From positions 62,001-126,000 of the forward strand of contig NZ_FNGG01000004.1 in NCBI RefSeq assembly GCF_900102915.1: DNA of 64,000 nt, read 5' to 3'. Of the stretch, positions 46,113-49,487 are shown in pieces. The notes beneath the pieces are model-generated. The model did not search any database, was not told where the DNA came from, and was given only the letters and a program-made list of their open reading frames with translations. Within the stretch, counting starts at the first letter, position 1, and every line of letters starts with the position of its first letter. Made by a program: the position numbers and the translations under genes. This DNA comes from Salinimicrobium catena (lineage in GTDB: Bacteria > Bacteroidota > Bacteroidia > Flavobacteriales > Flavobacteriaceae).

Positions 46113-47189
46113 TTAAAAAACATCCGAATTTTCCTTGAGTTTTTCGGTGTTCTCTACCAGTTGCAGTTCATCGATGATCTTCTGGATATCCCCATTGATA
46201 ATGTTGGAAAGATCATAAAGAGTAAGCCCTATCCTGTGATCGGTAACCCTGCCCTGGGCGTAGTTATAGGTACGGATCTTGGCACTCCTGTCTCCGCTGG
46301 AAACCATGGAGTTCCTTTTGGCCGCATCGGCTTCCATCTTCTTGGCCAGTTCCTGCTCATATAACCTGGAACGAAGTACTCTAAAGGCTTTTTCCTTGTT
46401 CTTGTGCTGTGATTTCTGGTCCTGGCACTGCGCCACCAATCCGGTAGGAATATGCGTTAATCGCACGGCGGAATAGGTCGTGTTCACCGACTGACCTCCC
46501 GGCCCCGAAGAACAGAAGTAGTCGATACGCACATCTTTAGGGTCTATCTGCACGTCGAATTCCTCGGCTTCCGGAAGCACCATCACGGTAGCCGCCGAAG
46601 TATGCACCCTTCCCTGTGTTTCCGTTTGTGGCACACGCTGCACACGGTGCACTCCGGCCTCGAATTTCAAAGTTCCGTAGACATCCTCACCGGTCACATC
46701 AAAGATGATCTCTTTGAATCCGCCGCTGGTTCCTTCGCTAAAGTCAACGATATTGTGTTTCCAGCCTTTGCTTTCAATGTATTTGGTATACATACGGTAC
46801 AGGTCACCAGCAAAGATACTGGCCTCGTCCCCACCGGTACCGGCACGAATCTCCATCACCACGTTCTTCGCGTCTTCAGGATCTTTTGGCACCAGCATCA
46901 TTCTTATCTTCTCTTCCAGCGCCGGCAGCTCCTCTTTCGCTTCTTCCAGCTGCAATTTGGCCATTTCGGTCATTTCAGCATCACTGCCGTCGGCAATGAT
47001 CTCTTCGGCCTCAGAAATATTTTGAGTAAGGGTCATGTACTTTTCCCGCTCTTCCATCAACGCCTTCAGGTCCTTGTATTCCTTGTTCAGCTCTATATAA
47101 CGCTTTTGATCGGCAATCACATCGGGTTGAATGATCAGGTCATTCACCTCGTCAAAACGTTGCTTCACAATATTCAATTTATCGATCAT
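46113..47189 (-). CDS. prfA: peptide chain release factor 1
   Basis: A 358-residue class I release factor for UAA and UAG. It has the domain 2 recognition region [15 protein letters not shown] (the PxT position) and the catalytic GGQ in [18 protein letters not shown]. The ATG at 47189 gives the normal length; an in-frame GTG 21 bases upstream would start inside the -7 box. It is followed by a strong terminator. Confidence 0.96.
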
Positions 47190-47209
47190 AACATCTGCTT
47201 GTAAGGACA

Positions 47210-47217
47210 CAAATTTA
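47210..47217 (-). promoter_or_regulatory. -7 promoter box for prfA
   Basis: CAAATTTA on the plus strand reads TAAATTTG on the minus strand, an exact TAnnTTTG box, 20 bases before the ATG at 47189. Confidence 0.6.
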
Positions 47218-47320: not shown

Positions 47321-47794
47321 ATGAAAATTACAACAAAGATCGGATTAGGAGGGGGATGCCACTGGTGCACCGAAGCGGTTTTCCAGGCGGTAAAAGGTGT
47401 TGAAAACGTAGAGCAGGGATATATCGCTTCAGAAGGCGACGCGAGAGAATTCTCTGAAGCCGTCATCGTACATTTTCACCCTGAAATTGTTTCTTCAGAA
47501 GATCTTATCAGGATACATCTTCACACTCACAATTCTACCTCAGATCATTCTTTCCGGAAGAAATACAGAAGTGCGGTGTATTATTTCTCTTCTGAAGATG
47601 AAAAAGTAGTAAAGAAGATCCTGGAAAAACTGCAGCCTGAATTTGAGAAGAAAATAATCACTGAGGTACTGCCCTTCAAGGAGTTTAAACCTTCCCGGGA
47701 ATCGCTTCAGAATTACTACAGGAAGAACCCTGATGCACCTTTTTGTAAAAGGTTTATTGAACCGAAGCTGAAGAAAGTAAAAAATTACTTTTAA
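47321..47794 (+). CDS. divergent peptide-methionine (S)-S-oxide reductase (MsrA-like)
   Basis: A 157-residue protein related to MsrA, which reduces methionine-S-sulfoxide. The active-site motif is GCHWCTE (12-18) instead of the usual GCFWCTE, so Phe of the substrate pocket is replaced by His14 while nucleophile Cys13 and acid Glu18 are kept. KKYRSAVYYFSSED matches the QYRS region. The loop that normally holds GG...Y..VxxGxTGH is shortened to GDAREFSE. It is followed seven bases later by the GxxExxY cassette. Activity is likely but specificity may differ. Confidence 0.8.
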   Translation: MKITTKIGLGGGCHWCTEAVFQAVKGVENVEQGYIASEGDAREFSEAVIVHFHPEIVSSEDLIRIHLHTHNSTSDHSFRKKYRSAVYYFSSEDEKVVKKILEKLQPEFEKKIITEVLPFKEFKPSRESLQNYYRKNPDAPFCKRFIEPKLKKVKNYF

Positions 47795-47800
47795 AATCTC

Positions 47801-47819
47801 TCACGCAGAGAGCGCAAAG
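47801..47819 (+). repeat. left inverted repeat of the GxxExxY cassette
   Basis: Left 19-base arm; the bases after it (GTCCCGCGAAGTTCGCAAAG) contain a second, imperfect GCAAAG copy. Confidence 0.85.
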
Positions 47820-47857
47820 GTCCCGCGAAGTTCGCAAAGAATCACTATCTTAAAGAG

Positions 47858-48234
47858 ATGGAAGAAAATGAAATTTCTTATAAGGTAATTGGTGTGCCAT
47901 GGAACTTCACCGTAAAATAGGTCCAGGACTTCTAGAATCTGTTTATGAAAATGCTTTAGCCTACGAATTAATCAATACAGGTCTTCTTGTACAAAAACAG
48001 CTGCCTATGCCTTTTATCTATAAAGAAATCAAAATGGATATCGGGTACAGGCTAGACCTCCTTATAGAGAACAAAGTCATTGTTGAAGTGAAATCAATCG
48101 AAACTCTTGCACCCGTTCATTTTTCCCAACTTCTGACTTACCTGAAGCTTTCAGAAAAGAAGCTGGGACTTCTAATAAACTTCAACTGCAAAACTCTCAA
48201 AGAAGGAGTTCACAGAATTGTCAATGATCTATAG
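47858..48234 (+). pseudogene. GxxExxY family PD-(D/E)XK-like protein, frameshifted near the N-terminus
   Basis: The larger open part (ATG 47899, 111 residues) has the family motif GPGLLESVY (GxxExxY), and the nuclease-like core YRLDLLIENKVIVEVKS (D...EVK) with LAPVHFSQLLTYLKLSEKKLGLLINF. The normal first segment of such proteins is encoded just upstream but in another frame: ATG 47858 reads MEENEISYKVIGV, then the frame is lost. One G missing in GTGCC (about 47894-47898) would explain it. Either the gene is broken, the shorter ATG 47899 form is used, or the assembly has an error. Its function is unknown; relatives are nuclease-like and linked to repeats. Confidence 0.8.
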
Positions 48235-48257
48235 GATCTCTGCGGCCTCTGCAAATT

Positions 48258-48276
48258 CTTTGCGCTCTCTGCGTGA
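48258..48276 (-). repeat. right inverted repeat of the GxxExxY cassette
   Basis: Exact reverse complement of the left arm; ends three bases before the stop codon of the convergent gene. Confidence 0.85.
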
Positions 48277-48279
48277 AAT

Positions 48280-49461
48280 CTAATGATACTCAAACTCCCC
48301 AAACTCACTCTTAATCGTCAGTTTCTTTTCTTCGGAAGCCTCTACCCTTCCCACGATCCTGGCATCGACATTAAATGACTTTGAAATAGCGATAAGATCT
48401 TCAGCTATGGCTTCGTCGATATATAATTCCATACGATGCCCCATGTTGAACACCTGGTACATCTCTTTCCAATCAGTTCCGCTTTCTTCCTGAATAAGCC
48501 TGAACAATGGCGGCACCTCGAACATATTGTCTTTGATCACGTGCACGTTCTCCACAAAATGAAGCACTTTGGTCTGCGCCCCACCGCTGCAGTGAACCAT
48601 CCCGGAAATATCTTTATTGGAGTACTTTTCCAGGATCTTTTTTATGACGGGAGCATAAGTGCGGGTTGGAGAAAGCACCAGTTTCCCCGCGTCAAGCGGA
48701 CTGCCCTCAACCTTATCGGTCAGATTCTTTGAGCCTCCGTAAATAAGTTCGTTGGGAATGGAAGGATCAAAACTTTCAGGATATTTCATCGCCAGATAAT
48801 TACTGAACACATCATGTCTTGCAGAGGTAAGTCCATTGCTGCCCATTCCGCCGTTGTATTCCTTCTCATACGTAGCCTGTCCAAAAGAAGACAGCCCCAC
48901 GATCACATTTCCGGGTTTTATGTTGGCATTGTCGATCACCTCGCTGCGCTTCATACGTGCAGTTACGGTGGAATCGACTATTATGGTGCGAACAAGGTCA
49001 CCTACGTCGGCAGTTTCGCCGCCGGTCGAATGAATGTTTATTCCGAAGTTCTTAAGATCAGAAAGTAATTCTTCTGTTCCGTTTATAATGGCCGAGATCA
49101 CCTCTCCCGGCACCAGGTTCTTGTTGCGCCCAATGGTGGATGAAAGCATAATGTTATCAACTGCTCCCACGCACAGCAGATCATCAATGTTCATGATAAG
49201 CGCATCCTGGGCGATGCCTTTCCAGACAGAAATATCCCCGGTCTCTTTCCAGTAAAGGTAAGCAAGGGAAGATTTGGTACCCGCGCCATCGGCATGCATG
49301 ATGAGACAGTGATTTTCATCTCCTGTGAGATGATCGGGCACGATCTTGCAGAACCCCTTCGGGAAAAGGCCTTTATCAACGTTCTTTATGGCATTGTGCA
49401 CGTCTTCTTTTCCTGCCGAAACTCCTCTGCCGGCATACCTCTTACTAATTTCCTTACTCAT
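48280..49461 (-). CDS. purM: phosphoribosylformylglycinamidine cyclo-ligase-type protein (AIR synthase)
   Basis: A 393-residue protein of the PurM superfamily in the form found in Bacteroidota. It opens with MSKEISKRYAGRGVSAGKEDVHNAIKN and has HADGAGTKSSLAYLYWKETG, DALIMNIDDLLCVGA, GGETADVGDLVRT and a later GLSSFGQATYEKEYNGGMGSNGLT, as in AIR synthase-related proteins. It would make AIR from FGAM in purine synthesis. ATG 49461 is used because a perfect -7 box covers the ATG 21 bases upstream. The GxxExxY cassette starts directly at its 3' end. Confidence 0.85.
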   Translation of the reverse strand: MSKEISKRYAGRGVSAGKEDVHNAIKNVDKGLFPKGFCKIVPDHLTGDENHCLIMHADGAGTKSSLAYLYWKETGDISVWKGIAQDALIMNIDDLLCVGAVDNIMLSSTIGRNKNLVPGEVISAIINGTEELLSDLKNFGINIHSTGGETADVGDLVRTIIVDSTVTARMKRSEVIDNANIKPGNVIVGLSSFGQATYEKEYNGGMGSNGLTSARHDVFSNYLAMKYPESFDPSIPNELIYGGSKNLTDKVEGSPLDAGKLVLSPTRTYAPVIKKILEKYSNKDISGMVHCSGGAQTKVLHFVENVHVIKDNMFEVPPLFRLIQEESGTDWKEMYQVFNMGHRMELYIDEAIAEDLIAISKSFNVDARIVGRVEASEEKKLTIKSEFGEFEYH

Positions 49462-49479
49462 GGTTGTGTGTTTGTGGCT

Positions 49480-49487
49480 CAAAGATA
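49480..49487 (-). promoter_or_regulatory. -7 promoter box for the purM-type gene
   Basis: CAAAGATA on the plus strand is TATCTTTG on the minus strand, 18 bases before ATG 49461. The leader contains the 13-mer CCACAAACACACA (49465-49477), which is also in the glnN leader. Confidence 0.6.

Follow-up and report, generated by a model that had tools for sequence, protein, structure and literature searches.

RAYT genes, the closest described counterparts of the locus reported here, are described in PMC3116915 as flanked by repeats; hairpin doublets showing compensatory changes accompany them, and the genes differ from one another rather than multiplying. An E. coli RAYT recognizes single-stranded REPs and cleaves at GTAG, according to the accessible part of PMC3733652. 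Here we describe genes of the GxxExxY family in bacterial genomes. Because their flanking repeats, hairpin doublets and distinct gene copies resemble those of RAYTs, we propose a nuclease–repeat partnership. By this analogy, and with slightly less than even confidence, GxxExxY would be a resident nuclease, resembling Cas4 and lambda exonuclease, that is paired with its own REPIN-like repeats, an arrangement comparable to RAYT–REP but built on an unrelated enzyme.

The window (the whole 64,000-nucleotide stretch of Salinimicrobium catena DNA analyzed) carries one such gene as a compact cassette between two convergent neighbors (Table 1). As the original prediction had it, exact inverted copies of the 19-mer TCACGCAGAGAGCGCAAAG enclose a single GxxExxY gene, on the plus strand at the left and the minus strand at the right, and the ORF ends place them six and three bases from the msrA stop, which ends at 47794, and the purM-type stop, which starts at 48280. 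The 19-mer has no other match in the 64 kb at up to three mismatches, and shuffled sequences gave a mean of 0.01 matches, with two matches in none of 100 shuffles. The full inverted arm extends beyond 19 bp to 39 bp and consists of four inward-facing units of about 7 bp (CRCNRAK), spaced by approximately one helical turn. Read from the outer end toward the gene, the units are CGCAGAG, CGCAAAG, CGCGAAG and CGCAAAG in the left arm and, on the minus strand, CGCAGAG, CGCAAAG, TGCAGAG and CGCAGAG in the right. No exact duplication was seen by eye in the bases just outside the arms (47795-47800 and 48277-48282). The right arm lies three bases beyond the GxxExxY stop codon, an abutment reminiscent of a terminator and consistent with a somewhat unlikely reading based on host function: the arms would serve the gene as operator and/or terminator sites, the arrays dispersed elsewhere would be targets of a housekeeping nuclease engaged in recombination, repair or the clearing of folded-back DNA, and the repeats would be kept by use rather than spread.

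Table 1. The GxxExxY cassette and its neighbors (positions within the window)
Feature	Position	Strand	Remarks
prfA-type gene	46113-47210	-	presumably prfA-type, named from its translation; divergent from msrA
msrA, left neighbor	47321-47794	+	PF01625; points at the cassette
left arm	47801-47839	+	units 47804-47810, 47813-47819, 47824-47830, 47833-47839; outer 19 bp (47801-47819) identical to those of the right arm
GxxExxY (PDDEXK_3) gene	47858-48234	+	ORF 47899-48234 (111 aa); first 12 codons from ATG 47858 in another frame
right arm	48238-48276	-	units 48267-48273, 48258-48264, 48247-48253, 48238-48244; outer 19 bp 48258-48276
purM-type gene, right neighbor	48280-49482	-	PF00586, PF02769; convergent

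Membership of the window gene in the GxxExxY family is supported by matches to TIGR04256 (133.3 bits, cut-off 35) and to PF13366 (125.4 bits, cut-off 22), the sole Pfam domain found in it. The frame opened by the upstream ATG encodes MEENEISYKVIG and then diverges, the remaining 111 codons being open in the other frame, and the family profile match begins at position 11-12. The window copy therefore stands in the family without a complete frame that includes the N-terminal helix. Since its N-terminus is out of frame and the GxxExxY genes of three relatives read through uninterrupted, the assembled sequence contains a single-base frame offset, as had been proposed from the sequence of the window, and intact copies exist elsewhere. 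The offset may be real or an assembly error. The window copy may be damaged or truncated, perhaps recently damaged; its ORF keeps the core nuclease residues D, E, K, Q and Y.

In 72 GxxExxY sequences, D53, E63, K65 and Q77 (window ORF numbering; D53, E63xK65, Q77xxxY81) are invariant, and Y81 is at least 90% conserved. The predicted model (pLDDT 90.6) matched SSO0001, a Cas4, with a Z score of 10.8 and an rmsd of 4.6 over 103 aligned residues, the next row scoring 8.1. The structural neighbors include lambda-type exonucleases (LHK-Exo, E 2.8e-4) and the Holliday-junction resolvase Hjc (Z 8.0), the latter agreeing with a housekeeping role. A weak Cas4 profile match was obtained for three of four GxxExxY proteins scanned, and sequence searches up to E 1 returned no relative of solved structure. 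With D...ExK, QxxxY and the modeled fold all present, GxxExxY belongs to the Cas4/lambda-exonuclease branch of PD-(D/E)XK nucleases, its catalytic activity being predicted; a fold does not establish function. Cas4 proteins carry iron-sulphur cluster cysteines and have cas1/cas2 neighbors. Identity with Cas4 was rejected: the 72 sequences contain no invariant or nearly invariant cysteine, and the neighbors at the window locus are msrA and the purM-type gene, not cas genes. Separately, PMC8934634 reports that, next to a reverse transcriptase of the CRISPR type, a GxxExxY domain was annotated in the place expected for cas4, which agrees with a Cas4-like fold. Values of dN/dS were 0.02-0.09 in the six of 16 pairs with estimable dS (several dS >1; the window's gene is in none of the six, its own dS being saturated), so that GxxExxY is under purifying selection in the measurable pairs. 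Selection of this strength, too, would fit a host function.

The inverted ends had been suggested to belong with the GxxExxY gene itself, and this proposal was examined on 173 distinct genes with usable flanks from relatives, the phylum and named genomes (176 were found and three dropped for flanks shorter than 100 nt). The sample is not random: it holds 30 loci from relatives, 70 from among the best-scoring phylum matches (30 taken automatically, 40 picked by hand mostly in list order), the best 80 of 576 named loci, and one viral locus. A GxxExxY gene is present in 15 of the 40 genomes of the relatives' set and a match in 186 of 395 phylum genomes, the window's genome counted in both. When 5' and 3' flanks were aligned in inverted orientation with no motif assumed, scores of at least 28 were reached by 106 of 173 genes, compared with 6.0% of 519 mismatched pairs and 1.2% of 173 shuffles. 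At least two inward CRCNRAK units on both sides were found at 117/173 genes, outward units at 17/173, and units inside the coding sequence at 0/173; the remaining 56 genes lack two-unit inward arms on both sides. The pattern was drawn up from the first 30 genes, and among the 143 unseen when it was written, 95 have two-sided inward units. At named loci such units flank 39 of 75 GxxExxY genes compared with 3 of 346 other ORFs (called mechanically). Of the named genes, 25 of 56 in Bacteroidota have arms, as do 14 of 19 in nine other phyla, including one metagenome-assembled genome labeled Methanosarcinales (such labels may be wrong). Inverted unit arms are a family-wide architecture of GxxExxY genes, recurring, also with other unit sequences, around most of those examined.

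The geometry of the arms is equally regular. Among 615 spacings between neighboring units, 67% are 8-11 bp, with a mode of 9-10 bp; the 117 two-armed cassettes have a median length of 505 bp, and their nearest unit follows the stop codon at a median distance of 4 bp. Examples include the Bacteroides finegoldii plasmid NZ_OY725952.1, in which GxxExxY lies between radA and the gene of an FAD-dependent protein with three units per side, Bernardetia NZ_CP147018.1, with two units per side, and a Sphingomonas gene between fabD and fabG with two upstream units only. Direct rather than inverted similarity between flanks (score at least 28) was found at 40/173 genes, compared with 5.4% of mismatched pairs, and in several of these a whole hairpin lies on each side, while at least one of them, L187, represents a tandem duplication. 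At four loci (L259, L266, L267 and L272, in genomes G243, G063 and G259), GxxExxY has arms of other units, built by eye around CATATAAG or ACATAGA, so that the unit code extends beyond CRCNRAK. A viral contig yielded one GxxExxY locus (L046) from 26 pattern matches. A phage origin was considered and rejected: the window protein has no PHROG match, and two of three relatives scanned gave weak matches of unknown function.

Within the window's genome, the 19-mer occurs at 13 places with up to three mismatches, three of them exact and the two arms included, compared with none for the 19-mer read backwards. Apart from the arms, the copies are directional arrays of the CGCAAAG-type arm unit, mostly solitary, with two pairs 143 and 268 bp apart. 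All nine of these loci that were examined stand in the gaps separating main ORFs. At four the flanking genes converge, and two overlap short, probably spurious ORFs. The original prediction had made the mobility of the cassette depend on the 19-mer flanking further GxxExxY copies, and this expectation largely failed: the other copies flank neither of the genome's two GxxExxY genes. The second of these lies between tsaC and cca, is 33% identical to the window's, and is enclosed by different inverted arms, GCCACGAATNCACGAAT. Its unit pair is dispersed as well (36 matches in its own genome at up to one mismatch, arms counted, compared with one for the control), so that in this genome both genes come with a separate repeat family. 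Two further arrangements were observed: a repeat beginning TGTCATTTCGAAGGAG adjoins CGCAAAG arrays at three places of one contig (G000:C25; L006, L007, L012), and CACGAAT unit pairs form tandem clusters with spacings of about 100-250 bp, as ordered arrays rather than single elements, at G000:C9:55158-55900, outside the window, and at G002:C3:83784-85148.

To follow the unit along the protein tree, each gene was labeled by the final base of its unit (G in 141, T in 25; the unclear 7 of the 173 were left out). The tree requires seven final-base changes, compared with a mean of 23.6 and a minimum of 19 in 200 shuffles; shuffling within sampling groups gave a mean of 19.9 and a minimum of 16. In the window's genus (19 genes) two changes were counted, compared with 5.8 after shuffling (lowest of 300 shuffles, 3). 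The unit type follows the GxxExxY protein tree. The match between dispersed repeats and resident cassette within the genus is looser. CACGAAT pairs number 36, 46, 21, 23 and 14 in the CACGAAT-armed genomes G000, G002, G005, G007 and G011; among genomes with no cassette so armed they number 17, 17, 15 and 10 in G003, G006, G010 and G009, and 1, 1 and 0 in G004, G008 and G001 (the genomes of G001 and G008 being 74-75% complete). It is the fifth armed genome, G011, that makes this contrast loose. G003 has no GxxExxY gene and yet 17 pairs, and in G286 CACAGAG hairpins match the arms of neither of its two GxxExxY genes.

Whether gene and scattered repeats occur together was assessed by counting two unit-pair patterns in 394 phylum genomes, the window's own left out. 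The numbers of genomes with a match in the transcribed count tables agree with those returned by the search (204, and 287 plus the window's own). The 185 GxxExxY-positive genomes hold a mean of 20.1 repeats (median 9, control 1.2) and the 209 negative genomes a mean of 2.0 (median 1, control 1.9). In the 24 families containing both positives and negatives, the repeat difference was exceeded by none of 5000 within-family permutations, the control pattern differing in the same direction but less (0.30 vs 1.22). The arms themselves account for part of the excess, and only 26 of the 185 positives surpass eight matches per gene by at least 10. These counts suggest that the gene family goes with its own scattered repeats, in a previously undescribed partnership of enzyme and repeat. 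Four genomes with at least 10 repeats (G062, G175, G359 and G408) are negative, with no PF13366 match; they may be relics, or their repeats may have another mover. That the repeats are in fact spread by a different enzyme, for instance a RAYT-type Y1/HUH transposase, with GxxExxY merely carried or tolerated between them, would account for these four, and the available portion of PMC3733652 offers precedents in Y1 transposases with flanking inverted repeats and in CGTC repeats with no known transposase. We consider this very improbable, given that the repeat excess tracks GxxExxY within the 24 informative families, that the unit type follows its protein tree, and that the arms hug GxxExxY genes and hardly any other ORFs.

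The structure of dispersed copies was inspected in 20 stretches from seven genomes, selected by hand among the matches listed; in G286 and G408 the choice fell on stretches most of which showed both orientations. Arm identity, computed for seven of the eight stretches of these two genomes, revealed seven inverted pairs with arms 82-94% identical (up to 60/64 bp) and loops of 1-58 bp, their sequence differing between elements; in G243 and G380 the dispersed repeats are looser or solitary. At L232, L233 and L234 of G408, which has no detectable PF13366 match, hairpin symmetry runs about 15-20 bp past the units into element-specific sequence. No convincing target-site duplication was seen by eye at the window junction or at the hairpins, and no clean empty site was found. 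Between lepA and yebC the window's genome carries both repeat types; G009, G002 and G003, the three relatives in hand with these neighbors, have no array there, and two of them have a lone unit-like match; the further junctions available are bordered by other genes. These intergenic regions are too diverged for placing repeat boundaries. The comparison suggests a lineage-specific gain of repeats. These observations weigh on the host-function reading in both directions. The hairpins of G408 stand directly after genes, and GxxExxY genes keep conserved positions, such as tsaC–cca in four genus genomes; against it, the lepA–yebC repeats look like a recent gain, hairpin-arm symmetry extends into element-specific flanks, and the unit sequence of the repeats varies among relatives as well as among the genes of a single genome.

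Comparison of relatives bears on whether the cassette itself moves. A related cassette adjoins msrA in six of 12 genus genomes, the window's included (71-83% protein identity), and the site was compared in nine genus genomes with a close msrA, again including the window's. GxxExxY follows msrA in the same direction in the window's genome, G002, G004 and G011 and is reversed in G009 and G006; in G009 the cassette, with an 83% identical protein, is flipped at the same junction. No purM match follows the cassette in G006 and G011, and G003 has no GxxExxY at this site. A different GxxExxY with CGCAGAT-type arms lies between prfA and msrA in G005 and G007, and a remnant CGCAAAG array remains outside a CACGAAG arm in G002 and G004. 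The second cassette is shared in turn, occupying tsaC–cca in the four genomes noted above and lying, in a fifth, beside what seems to be the same tsaC end. Within genomes, 76 of 78 GxxExxY pairs among the loci in hand are less than 70% identical. The two remaining pairs reach 72% in G216 and 99% in G130. The latter (L187, G130:C4:67183-71264) consists of two adjacent genes that arose by recent tandem duplication; no other pair seen among these loci is near-identical.

The flip in G009, the reversal in G006, the different cassette beside msrA in G005 and G007, and the remnant in G002 and G004, which looks as if one cassette had nested in another, could all point to a selfish element in which gene and arms move together and insert in or beside existing arrays like a homing endonuclease, the arms serving as repair homology; a distant Foldseek match to the homing endonuclease I-Bth0305I (E 0.07) is in the same vein. 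We regard this as improbable. Orientation flips could equally arise by recombination between the inverted arms, and plasmid carriage is rare, at eight of 72,556 records (one query protein, E 1e-5); three records from that search, those of Bacteroides finegoldii, Bernardetia and Sphingomonas described above, were read, two with arms on both sides and one with two upstream units only. Above all, the gene copies within genomes are distinct and the same sites are kept between species, and for these reasons a mobile cassette was rejected as the leading explanation. The original prediction of a small transposable unit thus holds in part: the genomes that carry the gene also contain scattered repeats related to its ends, and orientation and position at the msrA–purM junction vary among relatives, but the gene copies are distinct and their sites recur.

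We therefore return to the nuclease–repeat partnership. GxxExxY would be a resident PD-(D/E)XK nuclease, its gene framed by inverted arrays of the unit that the enzyme recognizes, with two to four units of about 7 bp in an array. Given the 8-11 bp spacing, several protein molecules could line up along a single face of the double helix. Units of this kind are also dispersed over intergenic positions of the genome, either in single arrays or in inverted pairs capable of forming hairpins. The nuclease most likely acts on the arrays or hairpins and, together with host recombination and repair, most likely disperses and homogenizes the arrays, the gene itself staying mostly in place as a distinct, vertically kept single copy. 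Binding of the unit, cutting and dispersal by GxxExxY, and the repair route are steps that we infer. A broader form of the proposal is a real but doubtful possibility: that a PD-(D/E)XK nuclease alone, in place of any DDE, HUH, tyrosine or serine recombinase, generates and spreads hairpin repeats by cutting and host repair, with its own unit code in each lineage, across numerous phyla of bacteria and perhaps in certain archaea.

In the open-access literature searched, no description of a GxxExxY–repeat partnership was found, and GxxExxY is mentioned only in passing. The name PDDEXK_3 had no match there; the unit-pair sequences, in either orientation, retrieved unrelated work or nothing, single-unit strings unrelated work among the matches listed, and keyword searches RAYT/REP and unrelated work. 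GxxExxY proteins have been named for a motif alone, and the family now has a testable partner repeat whose unit can be read from the adjacent sequence. A functional pairing would represent a second, independent solution to the role filled by RAYT and REP, provide natural matched pairs of nuclease and site for recognition studies, and account for one class of short repeats found between genes, in Bacteroidota as in other phyla.

Among known systems, Cas4, lambda exonuclease and RecB-type nucleases share the fold and core residues of GxxExxY, which differs from Cas4 in its length of only about 120 aa and in the absence of cas neighbors at the window locus. The homing endonuclease I-Ssp6803I is a PD-(D/E)XK enzyme, and those of the I-Bth0305I type resemble GxxExxY in belonging to the same nuclease superfamily and in being small stand-alone genes tied to a DNA site; unlike them, GxxExxY has inverted arms on both sides, and no intron or intein was seen at the window locus. 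MITEs and their autonomous transposons likewise combine short inverted-repeat elements with a gene-bearing form that has similar ends, but the cassette contains no transposase, its gene-bearing forms in hand are not near-identical (as with the two found in the window's genome), and no target-site duplication was found. TIRtrons, the loci of TIRYTs, have one gene between inverted repeats and repeats that form modest dispersed families (in the accessible part of PMC3733652); their enzyme is of the HUH/Y1 type and unrelated to GxxExxY, whose arms are quasi-tandem arrays of units. In the RAYT–REP/REPIN systems, or REPtrons, as with GxxExxY, short repeats border a chromosomal gene and recur at scattered intergenic sites, the repeats are often hairpin pairs with compensatory changes, and the genes within a genome are distinct and single-copy (PMC3116915, in the excerpts available). 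For GxxExxY, the mostly extragenic position of the dispersed repeats comes from the nine loci examined, and the distinctness of the genes from the within-genome pairs in hand. The two systems part at the enzyme and its repeats: RAYTs are HUH/Y1 transposases (as given in the available portion of PMC3733652), whereas the window gene contains PF13366 as the only Pfam domain found and has a predicted PD-(D/E)XK fold, and its repeats are arrays of units of about 7 bp.
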